In this document: positions 2,318-28,406 of the stretch, one piece after another | Numbering within the stretch: position 1 is the stretch's first letter | Layout of the letters: each line of letters starts with the position of its first letter | Virus record (IMG/VR): IMGVR_UViG_3300035704_000392 | Coordinates: 1-28,813 of that record | Direction: 5' to 3' (one strand) | Source: a virus | DNA: 28,813 bases | The notes under the pieces: model-generated | Told to the model about the DNA's origin: nothing | What the model saw: only the letters and a program-made list of their open reading frames with translations | Databases searched by the model: none | Position numbers and translations under genes: made by a program

Positions 2318-2481
2318 CTATTGCTCGCTTGGGGGTTGTGGTGTTGGTGGACGAGTGCGCCAGCTAGTTGTCCAGCACGTCACACTATTTTTTCGCCTCA
2401 CAGGTGACGTGAGCCGCCAAATACGCCGGTAGTTCTACGGATATTTTGACCGCGGTTGCGGTGCATGCTACTCACGTGGCA

Positions 2482-3516
2482 ATGGGGGCAAGACACACTT
2501 ACTACGACTACATTCGTGCGTTCGCCGCGCTACTTGTCCTGTTTTGCCATAAGGGGAAAATGCCGGGCGGACCGATCGGCGTAAGCATTTTTTTCTGCCT
2601 GAGCGGCTTTCTCATCACCAAGATTTTGATTGGCCTTCCCAGCACATCAGCTCTCAACATCGCGAATTTTGTTTTCCGCAGATTCATGCGGATTTTCCCG
2701 CTCTATGTCGCGACCATTTCGGCGGCCATTCTGTTGGCGTGGCTGTATCGGCCCGAACGTCTTCCCCACCTCATCGCCGGTCTCCCAGGGTTGTTGACCT
2801 TTACCCAACTTCCAACCGGGGCCGGCTACGCAACTGCGGTGGCGTGGAGCCTCCATGCGGAATTTTGGTTCTACGTCTGCTTCCCGATCGTCTTTGCGAT
2901 CACATACAAGCGGAGGCTACTGCCGCTTGCGATAGCGGCCCTGATCGTAGCGAGTATTTTCGCCAAGGTTTTCGCAGGAGCCCAGGACGAGTGGCCCATA
3001 GCAACGGGCCCATGGTTCACCGTCCTTTACCTCGACACGCTTATGTATGGTGCGATTTGCGCGCTCCTAGTCGCAAATCGCTCCGCTGTAGTCGGCCTAT
3101 TTTCCTCTAAATTTTGGTTTTGGGGACCACTCACCGCCAACCTGATGATTGCCAAACTCGGGCCGCTCAATCATTGGTACTTCGAAATGAGCGTCGCCGC
3201 GTTGCTTTGCGCCGTCGCCATCCTTCATTACGAGGCGACTAAGCAACACATGAAAGACAACTTCATTGCGTGGCTCGGGCGAATTTCCTTCTCTCTGTAT
3301 CTCGTTCATGCGGTGGTTCTTGACTATCTCCCCTATGAAAAGCTCCCCGACATATTAGATACCCCGTCCTTCTTTGTTGTGGTTCTCGCCGTCTCCATTT
3401 TTACCCAGCGGTTTATCGAGCGACCCGGAATTAGATTGGCACATGAGATCGCGGGTTTCCGCGCGGCCAAACGAGGGTCAGATGGCCCGCAAGAGGCTAT
3501 TCTCAAAAAATCCTAA
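2482..3516 (+). CDS. Acyltransferase 3 family membrane protein (O-acetylase type)
   Basis: A 344-residue integral membrane protein on the strand opposite to the phage genes. It begins MGARHTYYDYIRAFAALLVLFCHKG; the R-x10-H arrangement (Arg of DYIRAF to His of FCHK) is the known signature of AT3/OafA-type acyltransferases. Further matches are GVSIFFCLSGFLITK, FVFRRFMRIFPLY, AWSLHAEFWFYVCFPI and WLGRISFSLYLVHAVV, with about ten membrane helices in all. AT3 enzymes O-acetylate surface sugars; phage-borne members change O antigen and block superinfection. An in-frame TTG at 2446 would add 12 residues; neither start has a clear ribosome site. Its 3' end overlaps the tail fibre gene by 14 bases in convergent orientation. 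The sequence looks more AT-rich than its neighbours, as expected for a moron gene. Confidence 0.9.
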   Translation: MGARHTYYDYIRAFAALLVLFCHKGKMPGGPIGVSIFFCLSGFLITKILIGLPSTSALNIANFVFRRFMRIFPLYVATISAAILLAWLYRPERLPHLIAGLPGLLTFTQLPTGAGYATAVAWSLHAEFWFYVCFPIVFAITYKRRLLPLAIAALIVASIFAKVFAGAQDEWPIATGPWFTVLYLDTLMYGAICALLVANRSAVVGLFSSKFWFWGPLTANLMIAKLGPLNHWYFEMSVAALLCAVAILHYEATKQHMKDNFIAWLGRISFSLYLVHAVVLDYLPYEKLPDILDTPSFFVVVLAVSIFTQRFIERPGIRLAHEIAGFRAAKRGSDGPQEAILKKS

Positions 3517-5642: not shown

Positions 5643-6641
5643 CTAGAACCGGAAATTGATCGGAGGCCGAACGGACCAATTTTCCATCGACTCGTTGCTC
5701 CAGATACCTCTTGGGGGCGCCGCCTGCTGCGGCGGCGGTTGCGGCGCCAGTTGCGTTGGATTGCGCGGATCGACGCCGGCCACGGAAGCTGTCCAAGCCG
5801 TAACATCATTGCCGTAAGGATTTCGAAATGGCCTGGCAGGAGAGACAAGTCTGAGGGGATCTGCGCCTTCGGCGGAGTCAGATGCTTGCGAGCTGGCGCT
5901 ATTCGCCTGATCGAGGTAGCCGCGATACGGCTCGAGAAATGGGAGCGGAAGTTTCGCCGTGCGACCGCTCAATAGCCACGGAGGGTGGCTACCGGGATTT
6001 TCCGATTTCTTGCTAACGGCCTCGGTCAGTTGAGAACTCGTAAATGGATCGTACGTCCGACCTGAATAGGCGCCCCGCGGCCGATACTCGATATCGTAAG
6101 AGTCACCTCGGTTTTCCGGATCGTATTTCAGTCTCGCCAGCTCACGCGCAACCTCTAGCGGAATATTCCAGGTCTTGTGTTTGAAGTTAAACTTCGTGTC
6201 GAGGGGTTGAATTTCGATGTCATGGAAAGTCTTTGTACCATCCTCACCGACCGTGACCCGGCCGGAAATCCGCGCGCTCTCGTTTCCGAATACGAATGCG
6301 CGCGTTCTGTAATCCTCCGATCCGACGTCAGTCGTATAGTGCGATATCGAAGCCGCGAGCGAGGGATCCTTCTTCCCACCTGGCGCCAATTTCCCCAAAT
6401 CGTACGTGTCCGGGGCAAGATCATTCCGAGCGATGACCTTTTGAATGATCGGAAACATCCCCGGGTGATAATACCGTCCCGGCCCCTCGTCCATGTACCA
6501 ACCCCTATCCACCTCAACCGGCTCGGGCGGACCCCCCACAGGAGTGGGCGTACCCGATGCGCTAAGCGTATTAGAGTGGTCGAGGAATTGCCGGTACGTC
6601 CAGCTCTGGTCGTTTCTGATCCTGGTCTGATTTCCTGACAT
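5643..6641 (-). CDS. Cargo/toxin-like protein of SOS module A
   Basis: A 332-residue protein with no signal peptide or membrane helix. The N-terminal linker is proline-rich (about 30-45). A mixed alpha/beta domain covers about 45-225: FVFGNESARISGRVTVGEDG, IQPLDTKFNFKHKTWNIPLEVARELARLKYDPENRGDSYDIEYRP. A low-complexity Ser/Ala/Pro segment follows. The tail from 286 reads SVAGVDPRNPTQLAPQPPP, sharing the A-G-[IV]-D-P-x-N-P-x-Q signature with the module B protein. It follows, by 3 bases, a membrane-anchored protein with periplasmic cysteines, and the pair has its own promoter. I infer a toxin or effector with its immunity protein. The D-x-x-F-N-F segment loosely recalls bacteriocin domains such as colicin M, but I cannot support an enzymatic assignment. 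Confidence 0.7.
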   Translation of the reverse strand: MSGNQTRIRNDQSWTYRQFLDHSNTLSASGTPTPVGGPPEPVEVDRGWYMDEGPGRYYHPGMFPIIQKVIARNDLAPDTYDLGKLAPGGKKDPSLAASISHYTTDVGSEDYRTRAFVFGNESARISGRVTVGEDGTKTFHDIEIQPLDTKFNFKHKTWNIPLEVARELARLKYDPENRGDSYDIEYRPRGAYSGRTYDPFTSSQLTEAVSKKSENPGSHPPWLLSGRTAKLPLPFLEPYRGYLDQANSASSQASDSAEGADPLRLVSPARPFRNPYGNDVTAWTASVAGVDPRNPTQLAPQPPPQQAAPPRGIWSNESMENWSVRPPINFRF

Positions 6642-6644
6642 AAC

Positions 6645-7034
6645 CTATCTGCCCCCTATGTAGAGCTCTGAATCCCAGTAGGTATCGTCATCAAAGACAT
6701 CGCCGCAGTTCGAGAGCATCACTTGGGCGAACCGTCCATCTCTCGCGTTCAGAGAGACATGCCATGCGATGACCAAGTAGACATTTCTGTCTCTGGTCAC
6801 CGTGCAGCAGTTTTCCGCTTTGGAAAGTGCGGCGATAAAACTTGCGTCGAATTCCTGGCCATGGGCGGATTCCTTTTTGGCTACCTCGATCGCGTCTGCT
6901 TCCGACTCGATCAGATGCTGCCCAGGGCCACAAACATTGTTCAAGCGATACGCGAATCCTGCGCACAACAAGACGAACACCGCAACGAGCGCGACGAGCG
7001 TGAACAAAAACGCTCGAAAAATCTTCTTCAGCAC
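6645..7034 (-). CDS. Membrane-anchored periplasmic protein, immunity candidate (module A)
   Basis: A 129-residue protein. The GTG at 7034 is chosen because AAAGGA lies about 7 bases upstream. Residues 5-29 (IFRAFLFTLVALVAVFVLLCAGFAY) are one membrane segment, with a Lys/Arg-rich start that puts the rest in the periplasm. That part has cysteines at about 35, 76, 77 and 110, suited to disulfides, and a SEADAIEVAKKES helix. An N-terminal anchor plus a periplasmic disulfide domain is also the design of the colicin M immunity protein; this is an analogy, not a detected homology. It is the first gene after a sigma-70-like promoter with a LexA-type box and is followed 3 bases later by the cargo-like gene. 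Confidence 0.7.
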   Translation of the reverse strand: MLKKIFRAFLFTLVALVAVFVLLCAGFAYRLNNVCGPGQHLIESEADAIEVAKKESAHGQEFDASFIAALSKAENCCTVTRDRNVYLVIAWHVSLNARDGRFAQVMLSNCGDVFDDDTYWDSELYIGGR

Positions 7035-7115
7035 GGAGCTTTCCTTTGATCGTGACGCATCCAAATGAGCAGGCCGCGAAATGCATGCAATCGCGAGCAA
7101 TTTTCTACCTATGAT

Positions 7116-7144
7116 TGTATAGAACAAAGAATGAACTTGGTCAA
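7116..7144 (-). promoter_or_regulatory. Promoter A with LexA-type SOS box
   Basis: On the minus strand: -35 TTGACC (7139-7144), a spacer of exactly 17 bases, -10 TATACA (7116-7121). Inside the spacer is GTTC-N7-GTTC (7122-7136), the exact LexA operator form of alphaproteobacteria. LexA bound here would block RNA polymerase until DNA damage. The first start codon served is the GTG at 7034. The promoter shares extra bases outside the box with promoters B and C in this window. Confidence 0.8.
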
Positions 7145-7169: not shown

Positions 7170-8381
7170 TCACCGCCGGCTGGACTTGCGAGCATGATAA
7201 AGCGCCACCGCATCCTTGATATCGCCCGACTGCGAAAGCCTGGCGGCGAGCGCGCGCACATCGGCATGTTCGCGCTCGGCGGAGGAGCGAGCAGTACCGG
7301 GCCGCTGCACCGGCGGCACAGGTTTGGCGGCGGCCGCGTCCCTTGCTTTCATGGCCAGGCGGTATTTTGCCGCGTCGTACATCATGTGCTGGAACGCGGC
7401 GTTTCGCATCAACGGTTCGCTGTTGAACAGCCCCATCAGATCGGCCGGCTCGATGCCGCTGGCCTTGGCGGAGGCGAATATCTCGGCGGTGACCGCCTGC
7501 TGGGTGGCTTTCGGCTCGCCTTTGAGCATGGTCTCAAAGAGCGCGTCCTCGGATCTTGCGAATTGCAGAAAACTCTGGCGCGCCATCTCAGCTTCGCGCT
7601 GGCTCTCGTGCTGCCGATACGCGAACAGTTGCTCTGATGTCGCTACCATTGCCTGAACCCGCGCGAATTTCTGCGGATCTTGTCTCGACATCAACTCGAG
7701 CGCGCCGGGCAGGTTTTCCGCTGCAATGCTCGCAAGCTCAGGGAATTGGCTGAGGAAACTCACCTGCGCGATCTGCGTTGCCGCATCCAGGCCCTCGAGA
7801 TAGCTTTGGCGGGCCTTCTCTGCCTCCCCTATTTCCTGTTCGATGGCCTGGCGCACCTGCGGATGCCGCAGCGCTTTCTCGAGTTCTGCATCGAGCTCGC
7901 TCGCAGCGTTCTGGCCGGCGCCTTCCGCCGAAGCGGATTCGTCGTCTCCAGGCAACGATCGATCCGGTTCGGCTTCATCGGCCTGCGGTGGCTCGAAGCC
8001 GTAGAATTCGGCCGCGCCGGGATCATTGGCCAGCGCTTCAGCGCGCAAGGCGTCAACGCGCGCGGCAAGATGTTCCGAGGTCACGTTGTCAGCCGCCAGT
8101 CTCTCGGCCGCAGTTACGCCGGCGTAATCGCGGGCCGCCCGATCGAGCGAGATCGCCTCGTTGGCGGCAACCGGTTTGCCCTCGTGATCGATATATTCCC
8201 GGATATTCGGCGGGCGCTGCGCGGCGGTGGATCGCGCTTCCGCCGCTTCGCGCAAGGAGGCGCTGTCGCCACCTATCGCGTCTTCGTCCGGCTTCCGTTC
8301 CTGATCCGGCATCGGCGTATAGCCGGCATTGGCGAGATCAAACGCGGCGCCCGTCAATGAAGACTGGGGTTCAGTTGTCAT
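7170..8381 (-). CDS. Scaffold-like phage structural/assembly protein
   Basis: A 403-residue acidic, mostly helical protein. The ATG at 8381 has GGAG about 5 bases upstream, so I do not use an earlier one at 8411. The N-terminal 150 residues are acidic and disordered (PDQERKPDEDAIGG, PDRSLPGDDESASAEGAG). Residues about 160-330 are long helices with coiled-coil character (DAELEKALRHPQVRQAIEQEIGEAEKARQSYLEGLDAATQIAQ). The end PVPPVQRPGTARSS then LAARLSQSGDIKDAVALYHARK is a motif I associate with scaffold or assembly proteins of alphaproteobacterial phages. Position after the tail genes, rather than just before the capsid, is unusual for a scaffold; an ejected internal protein is an alternative. 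Confidence 0.6.
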   Translation of the reverse strand: MTTEPQSSLTGAAFDLANAGYTPMPDQERKPDEDAIGGDSASLREAAEARSTAAQRPPNIREYIDHEGKPVAANEAISLDRAARDYAGVTAAERLAADNVTSEHLAARVDALRAEALANDPGAAEFYGFEPPQADEAEPDRSLPGDDESASAEGAGQNAASELDAELEKALRHPQVRQAIEQEIGEAEKARQSYLEGLDAATQIAQVSFLSQFPELASIAAENLPGALELMSRQDPQKFARVQAMVATSEQLFAYRQHESQREAEMARQSFLQFARSEDALFETMLKGEPKATQQAVTAEIFASAKASGIEPADLMGLFNSEPLMRNAAFQHMMYDAAKYRLAMKARDAAAAKPVPPVQRPGTARSSAEREHADVRALAARLSQSGDIKDAVALYHARKSSRR

Positions 8382-8518
8382 TAGTGCTCCAGCATGTGTT
8401 GATTGCGGCAATGCGCGGCGAGGCCTGCGGCGACGATGATGCGCGCGCTGACCGTTTTCGCTATGAGGTTTAGAGAGGTGGCGGGACTAGCCGATGCAGG
8501 CTCGGCCTCCAGGATCAG

Positions 8519-8806
8519 CTATCCCGATCGCGACGAATGCGATTCCGTCTTGGCGACGATATCCTTGACGGCACGATCAACGACGGACTTTCCATGCGCA
8601 TCGAAATCGTTGCCCGGCAGCAGCGTGTGCGCATTGATGCTTTCAAGGGCGAACAATGCATCGGAAAGCGAGCGCTCCAAAGCATCGTCCTCAATTACAG
8701 CTACCCGACCTTCAACCTTGTGGATGAGCGTCTGGAGCGACATCAAGCCGTCCTGATAGTCTGTCGCCGCTCCAGTGATGAGGGTGACTTGATAAGCTAC
8801 GTCCAT
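8519..8806 (-). CDS. Small cytosolic protein, immunity candidate
   Basis: A 95-residue protein starting at the ATG at 8806 (GGGAAAG upstream; a GTG at 8854 would add 16 residues that look non-coding). It has no signal peptide or membrane segment. It reads MDVAYQVTLITGAATDYQDGLMSLQTLIHKVEGRVAVIEDDALERSLSDALFALESINAHT and is acidic and helical. An acidic small helical protein directly downstream of a cargo-like gene with a distinct C-terminal domain is what immunity genes of polymorphic toxins look like. The function is inferred from position and composition only. Confidence 0.65.
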   Translation of the reverse strand: MDVAYQVTLITGAATDYQDGLMSLQTLIHKVEGRVAVIEDDALERSLSDALFALESINAHTLLPGNDFDAHGKSVVDRAVKDIVAKTESHSSRSG

Positions 8807-8962
8807 TATCGCTTTCCCGATAGGCCAGCTATAGCCCAACCCTGACCTCTTCACAACTTTTAGTTGTTGTGCGTTCCTATCGGTGCGTCGCTTAGCAAGT
8901 TGGGGAAGTAGGGAATGTTTGCCGAGAACAAGATTCCGCTTTGACGATCCCTGCGCTGGTTC

Positions 8963-9853
8963 TCACCGGCGCTTGTTGCGCTTAGCTCTTTTCACCGGCG
9001 TCCAATTGGTCGGCTTGTCGGTAAGATTCCCACCGCAGCGTTGGTGCATAAAGCCTTTCATACAATCACTCATGGTCCAGGGGCGCCCTGATTCAGTCGG
9101 GTAAGGCCCTGTGTCATAGTGACTGTCCTTCCAAGGCTCAGAGCATATCTTGAGAGCATCTTCCCTCTCCTGCTTACAATCTGGGTCAGGTTCAGCCGGT
9201 TGCGCAGCCGGGCTCTCGTAAGGAGCAATGCTCCCGGGATCTTCTATGGTCGGTACCGAAGGTATTTCAGGAGCAATGCTTCCAGGATCCTTGATCTTTG
9301 GTATCTTTTCCGGGTCGCTGCCAGGCCCGCCCGCTTTCTGGTTGTCCAGAATAATTTTGCCCAGCGTGGCAGCGATAGCATCGAACAGCGCTTTTCCTCC
9401 TTTGATGGCTGCTCGCGCCACATCAGCTCTGCCTGCATATTGCGAACCTGGTCTGACCGGATCGGGGAATGCGTCGGAAACAACGGGCGCTCCGCCTCCA
9501 TTATCGCCGGTGTGAAATCCTTGCTGACCGGCCAGCGCTTGCGCGACCAGCGCTTTGCGGCTCTCCGGATTGACGGTCGCAAGCATTGCCTTGTGATCGC
9601 CGAGCACCGAGCGCAACGCTCGATATTGCGAGTTCAGGTTCGGCGCGCCGGCCTGCTCGCCGGAAGGCAGTCCATCGACCGGCGGATTTGGCCACGCGAT
9701 TTGCTGCGCCGCCTGCGGCGCGGATGCCGAGGCGGCAAAGCCCGTAGCCGGTTGATATTGATCTTGCTGCGCTTGCAATGCGAGCAGCCGACCGAGTAGT
9801 CCACCGCCCTCCCCGAACTGTCGGGGAGCAAAATAACCATCTAACAATGCCAT
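8963..9853 (-). CDS. Cargo-like protein, LLGRL N-terminal module and Cys-rich C-terminal domain
   Basis: A 296-residue protein with three parts. The N-terminal module (7-38, YFAPRQFGEGGGLLGRLLALQ, then QYQPATGF) is shared with the 12055-13203 protein. The middle is Pro/Gly/Ala-rich and has a short DPGSIAP repeat (about 189-195 and 205-211), visible in the DNA too. The C-terminal domain (about 225-280) has four cysteines, 226, 237, 264 and 273, in a C-x10-C-x26-C-x8-C-GGN pattern, and then a basic end. I recall related C-termini in exported and toxin-like proteins of proteobacteria, with no known activity. Its start overlaps the fibre stop by one base (TAATG), so it is made with the virion proteins. 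The gene after it looks like an immunity gene. Confidence 0.7.
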   Translation of the reverse strand: MALLDGYFAPRQFGEGGGLLGRLLALQAQQDQYQPATGFAASASAPQAAQQIAWPNPPVDGLPSGEQAGAPNLNSQYRALRSVLGDHKAMLATVNPESRKALVAQALAGQQGFHTGDNGGGAPVVSDAFPDPVRPGSQYAGRADVARAAIKGGKALFDAIAATLGKIILDNQKAGGPGSDPEKIPKIKDPGSIAPEIPSVPTIEDPGSIAPYESPAAQPAEPDPDCKQEREDALKICSEPWKDSHYDTGPYPTESGRPWTMSDCMKGFMHQRCGGNLTDKPTNWTPVKRAKRNKRR

Positions 9854-19271: not shown

Positions 19272-20234
19272 TCAGGATGCGGTGTTATCGAACACGCCGC
19301 CGCTGGCTTTTTCGTTCCGGGCGACCAGCGCGTACTCCGCCAGAATCTGGCAGCGATCGGAGTCGCCGGTTTTGGCCAGCGGGACCGAGATCATGTTGCG
19401 GCCGTTCAAATAGGCGACCGCCCATTTGTCCATCTCAAGCACCAGCACATCCCGAGCGCGCTGGAAGCGGTTTGCCACCACCTTGAGCTTGCCGAAGTCG
19501 GACTCGTAGGCGTCGACCGAAGCCACGATCTTCTTCGACTTGGCTTCCTCGATCGCGGTGGCGCGGCCGGTGAAGGTCGAGAACACCTGTTTGTTGAAGG
19601 CGCCGGTCAGAATCGTGCCCGGCTTGCCGCCATTGATCCAGATCGAGGACAGCACGCTCTTCAATCGCGCCTCCGTGAAAGCAATCTGGGTGCCATCGCT
19701 GCGTGTACCGGTGCCGTCGGTCACCGATGGATCGGCAGGCGAACCGGCGCTGCCCTTCGAGGTGTTGGATGCGATCCATGACAGGATCGAAGCCGTAAGC
19801 CGCGGCGTGGTGGTGTTGCCACTTACCTTGGCCTGGTTGGTTCCGACAAGGATAGTCTCGATGTCGCGCTTGAGCTCGAGGCCTTTCAGCATTTCCTGAT
19901 ATGCCAGTTCGTTGTCGCGGCCGGCGTGATCGACGGCCTGCTGGGTGCCCGAGACGCGTGCCACCTTGTAGGAGATCTGGCAGAGATTGCCCAGGCGAAC
20001 CGTGGGCGTGCTCACGGTCGTGGTGGGATCGTCGCCTTCGAGCTGCGCATTCGCCGCGGAAGCCGCGGCCAGCGCCTGGGTTTGCCATTCGTGATTGACG
20101 GCCGAGGCTTTTTCCTTTTCGGCGCCGCTCATGAAGGGCGTGTCGGTCGGATCGATCCGATAGATCATATCCGAGAGATCTTCGCGGTTGCCAACCGCCT
20201 GATAGGTGGCAAAGGTTGAAGTCGGTAGAGACAT
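19272..20234 (-). CDS. Major capsid protein (DUF5309 / SU10-like)
   Basis: A 320-residue protein. The ATG at 20234 is used because AAGGA lies 8 bases upstream; two earlier ATGs fall in that ribosome site. It reads MSLPTSTFATYQAVGNREDLSDMIYRIDPTDTPFMSGAEKEKA, then a long extended stretch, LCQISYKVARVSGTQQAVDHAG and DNELAYQEMLKGLELKRDIETILVG. Later come LKSVLSSIWINGGKPGTILTGAFNKQVFSTF, FGKLKVVANRFQRARDVLVLEMDKWAVAYL and a short end. This is the DUF5309 family of HK97-fold capsid proteins found in SU10-type and related phages. It is the first gene after the terminator and open-frame region at 20237-20590, so it may be read from an upstream operon or a promoter of its own that I could not find. 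Confidence 0.9.
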   Translation of the reverse strand: MSLPTSTFATYQAVGNREDLSDMIYRIDPTDTPFMSGAEKEKASAVNHEWQTQALAAASAANAQLEGDDPTTTVSTPTVRLGNLCQISYKVARVSGTQQAVDHAGRDNELAYQEMLKGLELKRDIETILVGTNQAKVSGNTTTPRLTASILSWIASNTSKGSAGSPADPSVTDGTGTRSDGTQIAFTEARLKSVLSSIWINGGKPGTILTGAFNKQVFSTFTGRATAIEEAKSKKIVASVDAYESDFGKLKVVANRFQRARDVLVLEMDKWAVAYLNGRNMISVPLAKTGDSDRCQILAEYALVARNEKASGGVFDNTAS

Positions 20235-20236
20235 GG

Positions 20237-20470
20237 TCATTCCTTGCAATTGTCCAGCGCTCTGCGGTCCGAAGCTGCGCGGGGCGCAACTGGAAGCCGC
20301 GCTCTTTGAGCGAGCCGGTGCGATCGAGTCCGCCAGGCGGACGTGGATGGGTTCAAGATTCTGAAGACCTCGGCGGCGCGATGGCGCGGAAGCATCGCTT
20401 CCGGTTCGGCTTCCATGATGTCTTCGCCGGGCGCCTGCTCTATTGCAGGGTCGGCGTTGGCTCGCGCCAA
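20237..20470 (-). CDS. Open frame before the capsid gene, possible gene remnant
   Basis: A 77-residue frame beginning at TTG; the frame stays open back to 20524. The first part (ARANADPAIEQAPGEDIMEAEPEAMLPRHRAAEVFRILNPSTSA) has GC-ending codons and an acidic helical composition like coding sequence. The later part (RLPVAPRAASDRRALDNCKE) looks like a shadow, while a different frame reads better, so a frameshift near 20340 is likely. A small scaffold-like or head gene could once have stood before the capsid. No homologue recognised and no ribosome site seen. Confidence 0.25.
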   Translation of the reverse strand: MARANADPAIEQAPGEDIMEAEPEAMLPRHRAAEVFRILNPSTSAWRTRSHRLAQRARLPVAPRAASDRRALDNCKE

Positions 20471-21919: not shown

Positions 21920-22219
21920 TCAAATGATTCCGAAACGCTTCCGTCGCTCGGCGAGTTGCGCGAGTTCTTTCAACTCAGCCTGGGCCAATTTGCCGCTGGT
22001 GACGATCGCGGTCAGATGATCGCGCACCTTGCCGACGATATTGATGGCGAGAAACAATTTTTCACGGGCGCTGATGTCTTCGATTGCCGTAGCGCGCCAT
22101 GCGGCGATGTAGCTGTCTTCGAGCCCAGTGAACGCTTCGGTCAGCAACTCGCTTTCGAGCATTTCCTGGGCTCGCATGGCCTTTGCCACGTCCTGCTCGA
22201 GCCTGCTTTCATCACTCAT
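21920..22219 (-). CDS. Small helical protein downstream of the portal
   Basis: A 99-residue protein overlapping the portal 3' end by 8 bases. It is all helical: MSDESRLEQDVAKAMRAQEMLESELLTEAFTGLEDSYIAAWRATAIEDISAREKLFLAINIVGKVRDHLTAIVTSGKLAQAELKELAQLAERRKRFGII. I recall this pattern (LLTEAF..LE..YI.AWR.T...D...REKL.LA...V..VR..L) as a conserved small phage protein next to the portal, with no known role. Coupling to the portal suggests a head assembly partner. Confidence 0.72.
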   Translation of the reverse strand: MSDESRLEQDVAKAMRAQEMLESELLTEAFTGLEDSYIAAWRATAIEDISAREKLFLAINIVGKVRDHLTAIVTSGKLAQAELKELAQLAERRKRFGII

Positions 22220-23888
22220 TGGATGTGCCCCGTCCGTTATCGCTCTGCTGCATTTTCAGCTCATGGCTATGTGCGGTAGCCGCGACGCCAAGCGCGGCCT
22301 CGGCGACCTCCATCTGATGTTGCGCTTCCGCGTGCTGCATTTTCTGCTGCCCGATCGCGGCCTTCAGGTGCGCATCGAGCAGAGACATCTTGGCGTCGAG
22401 CTCAGCCTTGATCCTTGCCAGTTCGATCTCGGCCTGCATCTTGACTTGCTGGTGAACGGCATCGCTCTGCGCCTTCTGTTGCTCAAGCTGCGCCTTGTGC
22501 GCGGCCGCGCCCTGATCGGCCTGTGCCCTCGCCTGCATGGCGAGCAGCTTTGGGTCGGGTGGCGGCGCGGGCGGCGTCGGCGGCGTGTGCAATAATTGTC
22601 CAGTCCGCGGATCGACAGCGGTGGGGTCGCAGAAGAACCGGTCGGGGTTTTTGTGCCCCATGATCCGGGTCAGTTCAGCCGCGGTGTTGTAGAGTTCGCG
22701 GTCGCCGACCAGGTTGCTTTTGCCGCCGGCGATCAGTTGCTTCTGGACGTTCGCCAAAGCCATAAGTTGCGCGAATTGCTGCGCCTTGCCGCCCGAACCC
22801 AGCCCGACATTGATGGTCATGTCCTCGCGCGTTTTCCATGTCCTCGGGTCGACATTGATCCAGGCGTTTCGCAGCCGCACCGTCTGTTGTTGCTGGCCGT
22901 GCTCGCGTATGGTGCCATGCAGCAGCGCGAAGATGTCGCGCACGCCTTCGGCCATGATCCGCGCGATCAGCTTTATCCGCATTTGCGAGGCTGAGAACAC
23001 CTGCGCCACCGCCGTCGCCGACTGGTTCTGCAATGCGTTCGCATCGATGCCCTGGCTCTGTTTGTTGAGCCCGCTGCGGGTTTCCAGCTCGGCGTCAAGA
23101 TATTGCAGCATCGGAAAGATCGATCCGGTGATATCCGGCACCACCTGCCAGTTCAGCCCGCCCGCGGTCTTGGTGCGGACCACGCCGCCGGGACGCGACA
23201 CCAGGAGATCGTCGAGCGTATTGGCGCCGGCATTGCTTTCAGCGACTTCCACGCGCGGGTTGTTATGCAGATAGAGATTGTCCAGCGCACCGCGCTTGAG
23301 CGCGGTCTTCTCCCGCTGCAGCGGCATGACCAGCTCGGCGATCGAGCGGCCAAAGAAGCGGTGCGTCATCGGCACCGGCGTCGTGGTCGCAAACGGAATG
23401 GCGTCGAAGGGCGTGATGCATTCCCTGCCACCCTTGCGCAGGATCTCGCCCTGGTCGCCGCCGGTGATCACCTGATACAGGCATGGTCGGCCGTTGCCCT
23501 CATAATCCATCCGCACATAGTGCTCGGTGATACGAACCAGCCGCGCCGCCGAGTTTGCCTCGCCGGTGATGGTGCCGAAATGCTCCTGCACGGTGTCGCG
23601 CGCCAGCGTCTCGATTTCGGTATTGCCGGTGTAATCATCGAGCGACCTGACCTGGTCTTGATCGAAGCCTTCCGCGACCAGTTGGCCCTCGGTCTTGGTG
23701 ACGACCTCGTGGAAGCAATAGTTGCAGTCGCGAATATTGCGGGCGCCGCGCTCGATGCCGAATTCCTCCGGAGGAACGCCCATCACCCTCGCCTGGGCGA
23801 GTTTTCGCGTCGTGACGAGTGTAACGTCGTGTGTGATAGCGGAGGTAACGTCCTGCGACAGGCCCAGCAAAGGTACAGCCGTATTCAT
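22212..23888 (-). CDS. Portal protein, C-terminal part of a split gene
   Basis: A 558-residue protein starting at an ATG that shares one base with the stop of the first portal ORF (TGATG), with GGAG about 10 bases upstream. It has the portal body: THDVTLVTTRKLAQARVMGVPPEEFGIERGARNIRDCNYCFHE, PFATTTPVPMTHRFFGRSIAELVMPLQREKTALKRGALDNLYL, YLDAELETRSGLNKQSQGIDANAL and RIMGHKNPDRFF. The end is a Pro-rich linker and a long Ala/Gln coiled coil (residues about 460-550), like the barrel of P22-type portals. The portal is the dodecameric ring through which DNA passes. Homologues of this type are normally one chain of about 700-770 residues. Confidence 0.85.
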   Translation of the reverse strand: MNTAVPLLGLSQDVTSAITHDVTLVTTRKLAQARVMGVPPEEFGIERGARNIRDCNYCFHEVVTKTEGQLVAEGFDQDQVRSLDDYTGNTEIETLARDTVQEHFGTITGEANSAARLVRITEHYVRMDYEGNGRPCLYQVITGGDQGEILRKGGRECITPFDAIPFATTTPVPMTHRFFGRSIAELVMPLQREKTALKRGALDNLYLHNNPRVEVAESNAGANTLDDLLVSRPGGVVRTKTAGGLNWQVVPDITGSIFPMLQYLDAELETRSGLNKQSQGIDANALQNQSATAVAQVFSASQMRIKLIARIMAEGVRDIFALLHGTIREHGQQQQTVRLRNAWINVDPRTWKTREDMTINVGLGSGGKAQQFAQLMALANVQKQLIAGGKSNLVGDRELYNTAAELTRIMGHKNPDRFFCDPTAVDPRTGQLLHTPPTPPAPPPDPKLLAMQARAQADQGAAAHKAQLEQQKAQSDAVHQQVKMQAEIELARIKAELDAKMSLLDAHLKAAIGQQKMQHAEAQHQMEVAEAALGVAATAHSHELKMQQSDNGRGTSNE

Positions 23889-24475
23889 CAGCTCGTTGCT
23901 CCCATGAGTTGTTGGTTGTCTTCGAGAGCGCCAGCATGGGTGTGAACGGTATGCGCCGCGATGTTCATCGCACCGCCGGATTCCATCACGGCTTGCGCCA
24001 ACAGCGCGAACTGATCGTCAGTCAAATCGTAATAGGTCTCGCGGCTTTCTTCCTCGCGCTCTTCCCACCACACCTTGACGATCCCGACCTTGGACAGCAG
24101 CGCGTCTTTGATGAATGAATAAAGGATCATGAAGCCGGGGTTCTGCTGCATGAAAACGTGATTGACGTAATCGGTCTCCTGCTGGGCCGCAGCTTCGTCC
24201 TCCGGGCCGACCGGCTCGAAGCGGACGACTTCGTCGGAGCCCGCAAAGATATCCATCAGCGAGGGCATCAAGCCTTCGATGGTATCCGCGACATCGGTCG
24301 AGACCGCGCGCGAGCGGCCGTCCTGCGCCGGCATGTCCTTGCGCATATCGCCGAGATAGTAATCCATCGCGTCGGCGCGATCTTCCATCAGCCGCGCGGC
24401 CGAGATCGCCGCCAGCGCATTGGCCTTTTCGGAGGCGAGCATGGATTTGAGATCGTCGTTAGACATCTTGGGCAT
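23888..24475 (-). CDS. Portal protein, N-terminal part of a split gene
   Basis: A 195-residue protein (an ATG at 24532 would add 19 residues). It reads MPKMSNDDLKSMLASEKANALAAISAARLMEDRADAMDYYLGDMRKDMPAQDGRSRAVSTDVADTIEGLMPSLMDIFAGSDEVVRFEPVGPEDEAAAQQETDYVNHVFMQQNPGFMILYSFIKDALLSKVGIVKVWWEERE, the standard N-terminal third of P22-like portals. It stops at LEDNQQLMGATS and the next ORF starts in another frame. No slippery heptamer was seen at the joint, so either a frameshift mutation or a true two-chain portal is present. The start region is duplicated at 26188-26332. Confidence 0.8.
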   Translation of the reverse strand: MPKMSNDDLKSMLASEKANALAAISAARLMEDRADAMDYYLGDMRKDMPAQDGRSRAVSTDVADTIEGLMPSLMDIFAGSDEVVRFEPVGPEDEAAAQQETDYVNHVFMQQNPGFMILYSFIKDALLSKVGIVKVWWEEREEESRETYYDLTDDQFALLAQAVMESGGAMNIAAHTVHTHAGALEDNQQLMGATS

Positions 24476-24597
24476 GGATAAAGGTCTCGGGTTGAAAGAG
24501 TAAGGATGTGGGTCCGTCTCGATGCAAAGCATTAAGCGCGGAATATCGATTTCGCCCCGAGCGCAATTGCACTCAGGCTCGCGAATTCACGCCGATG
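24451..24597 (-). repeat. Direct repeat copy 1 (portal 5' end and leader)
   Basis: 147 bases covering the first codons of the portal gene and the sequence upstream. An imperfect copy, in the same orientation, lies at 26188-26332. Similarity is high by eye (long identical runs broken by single changes) and stops sharply at both ends. Confidence 0.85.
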
Positions 24598-24630: not shown

Positions 24631-25524
24631 TCAGGCTTGGCGCTGGCCGCGAAGCAAGAGGCCGAGCAGCCCACCGGCTGGCGGCGCAGTTTGGTCCGGA
24701 TTGTTCGGATCGATGCCCGCCAGCGCTGCGAGTCGGCCGGCAAGGCCGCCGATGAATTCTGGGGTTGAGGCTGGGAGAAGAGCTACCGGAGTACTAGGAA
24801 GGCCTAACCTGAATGCTCCGGGCTTTGGTCCGCCCCCTGCAGGCAAGTTCCAGATCGGCGGCGGTGCGGGAGAGTTCGGCATTGGCTTGCCGCCAAAAAT
24901 GCCTAGCGGTCTGGAAGACTGTGGCTCGGGCGTGTTGCGACTGGAAACAGCTGGCGCGCTTGTGTCGAATACGGACGCCGGCGATCGGTCCACAATCCGC
25001 CGGGATAAAATTCGCACCGGCTCACTGTTCAAGTTATTGTCCGTCGCTCCTGCCCGCGACTCCTGCACCAGCGGCTCTGCTTCAGGAGGAAATGAAATGA
25101 GCTCCGGTGCGCCACTTAGTGATCTTGGACTTATTACTCTGGGAACATCAATTGGATCGACTGTATCCGGATGAGCGCGCAGAATACGATCTCTGGCTTC
25201 GTTGTTTCGTGCAGCCTGTTCGACCCGCTCGATCGTTCGATCGATGTTGTCGATAACGGAATCGATTATCGAATTAGGATCATCAGCAAATGCCTTCGCC
25301 CCAATTGCGTATTGCTTGAACCTTTTCAGATCCTGAACCGTGCTGTCTCCAAAGTCACTTATTAACGGTTTTTGCGTGCCGCCTTCGAAATACGACCCTG
25401 CTCCGTTCAAATAGTAATCAAGAACATCGTTGGCTTGAGCGCTGATCTCAGCTCTGTGCGCTTCCGTTATCGTAGTAACCGTGCCGTTCGGTGGAGGTAG
25501 AGGTCTTTTTTCTATAGTAGCCAT
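24631..25524 (-). CDS. Cargo/toxin-like protein of module B
   Basis: A 297-residue protein starting at the ATG at 25524, with GGAG 5 bases upstream. Residues 1-120 are helical and charged (VTTITEAHRAEISAQANDVLDYYLNGAGSYFEGG, NSIIDSVIDNIDRTIERVEQAARNNEARDRILRAH). The rest is Pro/Ser-rich, presumably unfolded, with SPAPPPIWNLPAGGGPKPG. The last 40 residues read GGLAGRLAALAGIDPNNPDQTAPPAGGLLGLLLRGQ. They carry both the AGIDPNNPDQ signature shared with module A and an LLG motif like that of the operon-encoded cargo-like proteins. There is no signal peptide. It lies 29 bases after the exported protein gene. Toxin/effector role inferred. Confidence 0.68.
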   Translation of the reverse strand: MATIEKRPLPPPNGTVTTITEAHRAEISAQANDVLDYYLNGAGSYFEGGTQKPLISDFGDSTVQDLKRFKQYAIGAKAFADDPNSIIDSVIDNIDRTIERVEQAARNNEARDRILRAHPDTVDPIDVPRVISPRSLSGAPELISFPPEAEPLVQESRAGATDNNLNSEPVRILSRRIVDRSPASVFDTSAPAVSSRNTPEPQSSRPLGIFGGKPMPNSPAPPPIWNLPAGGGPKPGAFRLGLPSTPVALLPASTPEFIGGLAGRLAALAGIDPNNPDQTAPPAGGLLGLLLRGQRQA

Positions 25525-25553
25525 ATTAGCTCCCGATCGTTTCGGCCACGACC

Positions 25554-25973
25554 TCATCGATAGTCGAACCTAAGATAAAGCGTGCCCGCACGTTCGTTCT
25601 GAATAAATAAGCCGCCTCTGGCTCGGGTTCCCTTAAAGAAGGAAACTCGAGATAGCAGGTTGCGCGGGTCAATGATTTTGCTTTCAGCGGCGAGGTCGAA
25701 ATAGCAGCAACTTGGGTCGCTTGCATACAATCGAACGGAAGCTTGCTCAGGCTCCCTGCGAGATACGAAAATGCTGACCGTCAGCCCCAGGGGTTCTATT
25801 TTCGCGCGACATATCTCGTCGAACGAACACGTCAGCGAGTTGGCGTCCTTACCGATCTCGGTTTCAACCCCCACCTCGACGCTATAGTCGGCGGCAAATG
25901 CGGAGCTGACCAACAAAGCAATGCCAAAGACACCCAGAACAGTGGTAAACAGAGGTTGTCCGGTGCTTCTCAC
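25554..25973 (-). CDS. Exported protein with four cysteines, immunity candidate (module B)
   Basis: A 139-residue protein starting at GTG (25973), with a weak ribosome site. Residues 1-28 form a signal peptide (TTVLGVFGIALLVSSAFAA, cleavage near AFA-ADY). The mature part of about 110 residues is beta-rich: YSVEVGVETEIGKDANSLTC, LGLTVSIFVSRREPEQASVRLYA, LLSRVSFFKGTRARGGLFIQNERAGTLYLRFDYR. Cysteines at 49, 55, 89 and 90 suit disulfides; the mid-chain Cys-Cys pair recalls the module A partner (76-77), though the sequences are not otherwise alike. A soluble periplasmic inhibitor or immunity protein is the best guess. It is the first gene after promoter B. Confidence 0.65.
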   Translation of the reverse strand: MRSTGQPLFTTVLGVFGIALLVSSAFAADYSVEVGVETEIGKDANSLTCSFDEICRAKIEPLGLTVSIFVSRREPEQASVRLYASDPSCCYFDLAAESKIIDPRNLLSRVSFFKGTRARGGLFIQNERAGTLYLRFDYR

Positions 25974-26187: not shown

Positions 26188-26332
26188 GATCGCCGTTAGA
26201 CATCTTGGGCATGGATAAAGGTCTCGGGTTGAAAGAGTGAGGGTGTGAATCCATCTCGATGCAGAGCATCAAGCGCGGAATCAATTTCTTCCCGAGTGGA
26301 GTTGCGCTCAGGTTCGCTAATTCACGCCGATG
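26188..26332 (-). repeat. Direct repeat copy 2, remnant of the portal 5' end
   Basis: 145 bases matching 24451-24597. The reading MLCIE-D-HP-SFNPRPLSMPKMSN is kept, but after MPKMSN the frame turns into unrelated sequence, so this is not a working gene. Copies 1 and 2 frame the whole module B (24598-26187). Because copy 2 is nearer the terminase, it may mark the original portal start or the outer end of an insertion. Confidence 0.8.
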
Positions 26333-27119: not shown

Positions 27120-28406
27120 TCATACCCAGCCCTGCTCTTTATATTGGATGGCCCGGTTGAAACTCGCTGCCCTGCCCGGCTCCTCGTAACAGATCGCCAT
27201 CAGGCCGAGCGCGTCGGCGGCGTGGCTCGACCAGTCGTGTTCGGGGCCGAGTCCGACGTTACGGTTGTCGTCCTTGCGCTCATGGTAGAAGCCGATGGCG
27301 TCGCGGCCCGGTTCGGTGGTCGTCTCGTTCCACCAGATCTGCGGGCCGAGCCGGCGCAACGCTTCGATGCGCATCATCGCCGCGCCCTTGCCCTGGTTCT
27401 TCACTGGCGGTTCGACCTTGAAGCCGGCTTCGCGCAAATGATCCTCATAGCGCTTGCCGGTGACGTTGTTCTGGTTCACGCCGTCATGCGGCAGATAAAG
27501 CATCGCCTGCGCATAACCTCTGGAGCGCAACCAGTTGACGTGAAACGCCAGCACCTGGCCAATGCTTTCATAGTAGTCCAGAACGCGAATTTCAGCGCCG
27601 ACCCATTGCACAACCCAGATCGTAAAGGCATCCGCATGCGCGCCCGCGCCGCCGATGTCGATGAAGGCGCGCAGCGGCAGCAGCGGATCGGCGGCAACCT
27701 TGCCGATGCGGCCTTGCGCCCGCGCCTCCGAAAGCATCTGCGCGAAGTAAGCGCCTTCGAAAGCTCTCACGTAATCGCCTTCCCAGATATGCTCGTACCG
27801 ATCCGGAAATAGCGACAGCTCCAGCCGGCGCTCGTCTTCCAGCACCGACGGGAACCACGGATTGTCGCGCCAGTTGGCGTTGACCGTGATCGCGCCCGGC
27901 GGATTCTTGCCGCGAAAAAAATCGTCAATCGGGTCCGATTTGCGCCTGGGATTCCAGCTCGCCCACAGCTCCGAGCCTTCGCTCCGGATCGTGGGGCGCA
28001 GCAGCGAAAGGCTGCGCGCGCTCAGATTTTGGGCCTCGTCGATCCAGGCAATTCGAAAACCTTCAAGCGATTTGATCGATTCCGCAGTGTGATCCTGCAT
28101 GCCCCTGAAAATGATGAGGCCGCCCCCGGGTGTCTCGATTTTATCGCTATACAATTTGAACTGATGACCGAGGCCGAGGCTGGCGATCTTGCCTTCGATC
28201 AGGCGCTTGGAAGACTGTGCCAGCGTGCGTTGCGCCTCGCGAATGCAAACCGCTGACGTGCCGCGCTCGGCCTGACAGGTCTCGACGATCAATTCGCCGA
28301 AGAAGTGCGACTTTCCCGAACCGCGGCCTCCGTAGACGCCCTTGTAGCGGGCGGGTTTCAGCAGCGGCTCGAAAATTCTAGCTGTCGGAATTTTCAGGAT
28401 GGACAA
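27120..28406 (-). CDS. terL: Terminase large subunit (PBSX/Terminase_3 type)
   Basis: A 428-residue protein that packages DNA into the prohead. Its ATPase domain has Walker A GGRGSGKS (26-33), Walker B RIAWIDEA (118-125) with Glu124, and ELWASWNPR (about 146-154) as coupling motif. The RNase H-like nuclease domain has Asp250 (AFIDIGG), Asp308 (LPHDGVN) and HAADAL near 395-400 with Asp398. The start is TTG at 28406; no ATG lies nearby. It overlaps the upstream small gene by 29 bases. Length is normal for the family, and all catalytic residues are present. Confidence 0.95.
   Translation of the reverse strand: MSILKIPTARIFEPLLKPARYKGVYGGRGSGKSHFFGELIVETCQAERGTSAVCIREAQRTLAQSSKRLIEGKIASLGLGHQFKLYSDKIETPGGGLIIFRGMQDHTAESIKSLEGFRIAWIDEAQNLSARSLSLLRPTIRSEGSELWASWNPRRKSDPIDDFFRGKNPPGAITVNANWRDNPWFPSVLEDERRLELSLFPDRYEHIWEGDYVRAFEGAYFAQMLSEARAQGRIGKVAADPLLPLRAFIDIGGAGAHADAFTIWVVQWVGAEIRVLDYYESIGQVLAFHVNWLRSRGYAQAMLYLPHDGVNQNNVTGKRYEDHLREAGFKVEPPVKNQGKGAAMMRIEALRRLGPQIWWNETTTEPGRDAIGFYHERKDDNRNVGLGPEHDWSSHAADALGLMAICYEEPGRAASFNRAIQYKEQGWV

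Follow-up and report, generated by a model that had tools for sequence, protein, structure and literature searches.

The portal gene of the virus analysed here is divided into two overlapping reading frames, and comparison with related loci indicates that this division is real, neither a mutation nor an assembly error. The DNA, referred to as the window, is the whole stretch from position 1 to 28,813 of IMG/VR record IMGVR_UViG_3300035704_000392. All tailed phages have the portal as a core component, the ring for DNA entry into the head, and the portals known to us are single chains. We consider it highly probable that a functional portal is encoded here as two polypeptides, that these are made by coupled re-initiation and associate non-covalently into a normal ring, and that the split had a single origin and later offered sites for inserted genes. 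Within this explanation, coupled re-initiation, non-covalent assembly and the arrival of the inserts are what we infer. A two-chain portal is a new form of a known protein, and an essential gene serving as a cargo insertion site is the wider pattern. No earlier report of a natural two-chain portal was found in the literature searched, which mostly excluded subscription journals and so gives weak evidence of novelty.

Two portal chains and their joint

On the minus strand the window reads, in order, terminase, the open reading frames 25554-25973 and 24631-25557, portal N, portal C, a small gene and the head genes. The features that concern the portal are:

27120..28406, minus strand: terminase large subunit (PHROG 3717, E 3e-47)
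23888..24475, minus strand: portal N chain of 195 aa, whose end falls in the loop that follows a strand of the wing domain (PF23899, PHROG 1216)
23899..23903, minus strand: GGGAG within the last N-chain codons, likely ribosome-binding site of the C chain (from sequence; GGAGG here in most compact relatives)
23886..23890, minus strand: TGATG, N-chain stop overlapping C-chain start (from sequence)
22212..23888, minus strand: portal C chain, 558 aa (PF23899, PHROG 1216)
21920..22219, minus strand: small gene of 99 aa that overlaps portal C at its end (PHROG 8161, E 9e-8)
19272..20249, minus strand: major head protein (PHROG 1328, E 2e-101)

The N-chain stop TGA occupies 23890-23888 and the C-chain ATG 23888-23886, with one base common to both; the joint reads GGGAGCAACGAGC-TGATG-AATACG, and GGGAG (23903-23899) sits 10 nt ahead of the ATG. 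A preliminary description had reported two portal frames of these lengths with a one-base overlap and a ribosome-binding-like motif ahead of the second start, and its coordinates, lengths, frames and overlap are borne out here. It had also taken the N chain for the N-terminal third of the portal, of which it is actually a quarter. Against PF23899 (SU10_portal; cut-off 30 bits) the N chain matches positions 2-151 of 593 (188 bits, E 2.6e-55) and the C chain positions 176-584 (419 bits, E 3.5e-125). Together they cover the family end to end, and consequently they are read as two parts of one complete portal. The N frame has a further in-frame ATG upstream, at 24532; relatives favour 24475 as the start.

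Portals of the SU10, PaP3 and Pa223 type (PF23899, PHROG 1216; PDB 7z44, 7sxk, 9nwm) are alike in full-length sequence, in fold, as judged from the model of a re-fused homologue described below, and in the gene order terminase, portal, head genes. They are, however, single chains, whereas here there are two, cut at a wing-strand loop, with the start of one overlapping the stop of the other. Translationally coupled phage genes with TGATG or ATGA overlaps resemble this joint in the overlap itself and in the upstream ribosome-binding site, and neighbouring genes of the operon overlap too; the difference is that the products of the coupled genes here correspond to parts of a single protein in relatives.

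Conservation of the split

Searches with the C chain yielded 80 viral contigs, 34 genome loci and one close GenBank phage (loci carry L numbers below). The preliminary description had pointed to homologues as a check, and the split lies at the same protein position in 96 of the 98 related loci that have both portal parts, a count in which some phages appear twice among the viral and genome loci, so that independent cases are fewer. The two exceptions are single chains, in a Bradyrhizobium MAG (L092) and in Kaistia terrae DSM 21341 (L113). Some loci had appeared to carry a single frame running through N, insert and C (for example 1413 aa in G548); on reading they are ordinary splits. Over 9067 bases the window and a second viral record (L003) show one mismatch (99.99% agreement) and their joints are identical, and the same split is present in the finished genome of strain BTAi1 (L104) and in phage OP596614. 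Between the window and 14 relatives, dN/dS was 0.06-0.13 for the N chain and 0.11-0.23 for the C chain; such values indicate that both chains are under purifying selection and are maintained as proteins.

The joint itself is conserved in the manner of a translationally coupled pair, with a stop/start overlap at 21 of the 22 joints examined that have no large insert. Nineteen of the 22 are TGATG or TAATG, in two others the C chain can begin at a TTG overlapping TGA (L194, L198), and the sole joint that lacks an overlap has a spacer of about 0.1 kb (L026). The overlap is retained in compact relatives as low as 62% identity. Two loci, L069 and L070, differ in having TAA or TGA as the stop and both retain the overlapping ATG. 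Furthermore, most relatives have GGAGG at ribosome-binding distance within the last N-chain codons (SEATS-stop), and the heads of the C chains are free to vary, in sequence as in length, ahead of the conserved HDVTIVTTRKLAQA. The kept ATG, the exchanged stops and the variable heads argue for a true second start rather than a frameshift. Ribosomes would finish the N chain at the TGA and restart on the overlapping ATG, probably aided by the ribosome-binding site within the last N-chain codons. The portal halves are separated by 0.15-8 kb of other genes in about 70 related loci; where kilobases intervene direct coupling is impossible, and there the C chain must have its own initiation.

A relative known to make virions has the same gene structure. 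Bradyrhizobium elkanii USDA 76 spontaneously releases two phages, of which ppBeUSDA76-2 (OP596614) is a podophage by TEM and was also recovered as packaged DNA (PMC10127595). In its locus (L083) the terminase ends at 7405, portal N spans 7405-7959 (184 aa) and portal C 7959-9620 (553 aa), with one base common to both in a TGATG joint, as in the window, and its C chain is about 71% identical to that of the window. Unlike in the window, no cargo separates its terminase from its portal; its C chain lacks annotation and its virions are known. The C-chain search matches one place only in the record, where the N half is labelled hypothetical and the C half is an intact open reading frame without annotation, so the published work is silent on its portal. 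A phage with a split-portal gene structure therefore makes particles; this is established for ppBeUSDA76-2, and the window is a 28.8-kb virus fragment.

Among other explanations, programmed frameshifting or stop read-through would make the compact forms produce a fused chain, at least on occasion. The frames do overlap, and the single-chain L092 implies that a fused product is viable. We nevertheless regard it as very unlikely: no slippery heptamer of the form X XXY YYZ is present at the window joint, which was read by eye (in agreement with the preliminary description), the C-chain heads vary freely, L194 and L198 begin at TTG, and a frameshift could not span the kilobases that separate the halves in relatives. 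A split intein joining the halves after synthesis, or a self-splicing intron in the interrupted relatives, seems to us barely credible, even though such elements often interrupt genes at conserved sites. The N chain ends about 17 residues past its last conserved strand and the C chain begins 12-50 residues ahead of the following one, which leaves far too little length for an intein; in Pfam the two chains match portal families and nothing else; no Rfam family reached its gathering score in the window or in nine relatives; and the window has no insert, yet its frames are unjoined all the same.

The preliminary description had also raised a recent frameshift mutation that broke the portal gene and left the phage defective. 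Many relatives are indeed prophages, and some have decayed, such as L240 with its truncated C chain, but the same split in 96 of 98 loci, purifying selection, the conserved overlap, the second contig and the virion-producing relative with the same joint refute it and leave it a minimal chance. Its other suggestion, an error of assembly or sequencing at the joint, could produce this picture in a single contig through one base gained or lost, but it is likewise refuted, and left with practically no chance, by the identical joint in the second record, which matches over 9067 bases, the same structure in the isolate genomes BTAi1 and OP596614, and that same conservation, selection and virion production. 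Its third option, that coupled translation produces the two subunits of a real portal, is the one supported by the conserved split and overlap, by selection and by the virion-producing relative, and on these comparisons it appears to be the right one.

Origin of the split and place of the cut in the fold

In 397 genomes across the order, full-length portal matches outside Bradyrhizobium were single-chain, and 242 Bradyrhizobium genomes gave about 30 two-part portal matches and about 6 single chains (counted from the table). One Bradyrhizobium locus (L233, in G510) has its PF23899 match broken at 479/480 into two abutting stretches, at a site different from that of the present split. A tree was built on the C part of 114 different sequences, with a midpoint root for drawing and with long outgroup branches. 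In it, the single-chain L229 (53% identical) and the Kaistia L113 are the nearest outgroups to one split clade (SH-aLRT 98). Compact forms lie on its deep branches and inserts came later and repeatedly, with at least nine changes forced by well-supported branches. The single chain of L092 is nested deep within the split clade, and an in-frame linker there replaces the stop and start. The tree points to a split that arose once, in podophages of Bradyrhizobium, from a single-chain ancestor, and to L092 as one later re-fusion. Its linker would be evidence, supplied by nature, that the two chains function as a single protein.

The place of the cut was examined in an AlphaFold2 model of the re-fused L092 chain, not of the window's two chains (mean pLDDT 74.5, pTM 0.60, 13 sequences). 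The model has the fold of the Pa223, PaP3 and SU10 portals (Foldseek to 9nwm, E 1e-41; VIA Z 31-35). Between a strand at 170-178 and a second strand at 198-217 lies a disordered loop (181-193, pLDDT under 50), and PaP3 and Pa223 have a short turn at the position matching the cut. The SU10 portal has a wing domain with a beta-sandwich (PMC9509320). Because the cut falls in a floppy loop between two wing-domain strands that would still be able to pair, non-covalent association of the two chains is plausible from the model, and they would then assemble into one normal portal ring. The natural split would mark a loop that can be opened without loss of assembly, which suggests sites for tagging portals. 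It also raises the question of how an equal dose of two chains is achieved with genes kilobases apart.

Inserts, repeats and tagged cargo genes

The following features lie at the start of the portal or upstream of it in the window, which is a compact form with an empty joint and one tagged gene upstream of the portal:

26188..26332, minus strand: direct repeat copy 2, vestige of the portal N leader and first codons (MPKMSNGD), 91% and 83% identical in two blocks
25554..25973, minus strand: 139-aa open reading frame that overlaps the tagged gene at its start, putative gene (from the list of reading frames)
24631..25557, minus strand: tagged cargo-type gene, 308 aa, C-terminal end DPNNPDQTAPPAGGLLGLL, with the C-terminal motif common to the relatives' insert genes
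24451..24597, minus strand: direct repeat copy 1, portal N leader and first codons

The 147-bp direct repeat thus flanks both reading frames. In the relatives, traces of portal sequence are found within and beside the inserts. One locus (L100) has a 61-aa reading frame exactly at the joint, with TGATG ahead of it and TAATG behind, so that the chain of overlaps is maintained. In L004 and L005, CCGGAGGCGACTAGCTAATGAATATGG ahead of C is a copy of the N tail, and a joint-like sequence ahead of C is recognisable in 20 of 65 insert-bearing loci (p<0.05 against shuffles). Remnants of portal N lie within the inserts of L055, L096 and L102, and remnants of the C-chain head within those of L015, L029/L087, L086 and L063/L064/L094. 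The likeliest reading of these remnants is that inserts arrive by recombination anchored in portal sequence, and the window's upstream repeat would be a sign of the same process. The joint, together with the N-chain leader, would then have become a recombination site that takes in genes without breaking the portal. In one 4.2-kb contig (L067) the portal C half lies ahead of the N half, which reflects either a permuted or circular contig or a rearrangement.

The codon-usage gene caller gave weak calls inside the inserts, and for this reason insert genes were judged by homology. In many of them, N-terminal domains of unlike kinds precede a shared C-terminal tag, GGLLGLIQDYMRNN; in many, and in the window frame 24631-25557, a Pro-rich linker is followed by a tag like NPDQ..AGGLLGLIQDYMRNN. 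A strict scan for the tag, with a motif picked after examples had been seen, found 64 reading frames, all in portal orientation, 49 of them different, in nine N-terminal clusters, some of which depend on uncertain start codons. When viral contigs were searched for the tag with a degenerate DNA pattern, 19 of 2.9 million matched, and this portal was present in all 19. Among the N-terminal domains are an M23 peptidase in L044 (E 1e-8), a domain of the tail-lysozyme type in L116 (PHROG 27932, E 1e-12) and one of the endolysin/transglycosylase type in L098 (PHROG 873, E 7e-17). The window's tagged gene had no Pfam, PHROG or PADLOC match and the window's reading frame 25554-25973 no PHROG match; PADLOC gave no defence match among the tagged cargo proteins scanned.

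MuF polymorphic toxins are encoded next to phage portal genes, and their loading into virions has been proposed (PMC5576092). The tagged cargo resembles them in having variable domains on a common part, beside the portal, in temperate phages, and the occurrence of one tail on dissimilar domains beside the portal suggests, by analogy, loading into the virion. The likeness concerns the cargo and not the split, and there are differences: the cargo proteins scanned showed no MuF domain (by Pfam for the window's tagged gene), the common part is a short C-terminal tag while the N-terminal domain varies, and in relatives the genes lie within the portal gene. A bolder proposal is that the split portal serves as a cassette dock, in which the cut in a tolerant loop of an essential gene lets recombination, guided by the conserved halves, swap cargo whose common C-terminal tag would load the products onto the portal or into the head. 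We hold it as a tentative possibility, somewhat unlikely; if true, it would be a phage-borne polymorphic cargo system with products delivered together with DNA. Some of the tagged genes at the joint have cell-wall-degrading domains, and as a group they make the phage loading of extra proteins a testable proposal.

Untagged genes were also seen. The protein of L086 3889-4734, encoded in the portal insert, looks secreted and has an Ivy lysozyme-inhibitor domain (E 3e-15); cell-wall-degrading tagged proteins are present at the same locus. L102 3516-4622 encodes an insert protein weakly resembling metallo-beta-lactamases, with PADLOC matches to PDC-M48B (E 2e-10) and LmuA (E 2e-7). In the window, a 332-aa reading frame (5643-6641) has a linker, AGVDPRNPTQLAPQPPP, that resembles those of the tagged proteins but lacks GGLLG, and a weak PA14 match (E 0.03); a 160-aa frame (6645-7127) has a weak TrbC/VirB2 pilin match (E 0.002, below the cut-off). 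An acyltransferase gene (2446-3516; PF01757, E 9e-25) lies on the opposite strand beside the tail-collar gene and is possibly a surface-modifying lysogenic conversion gene.
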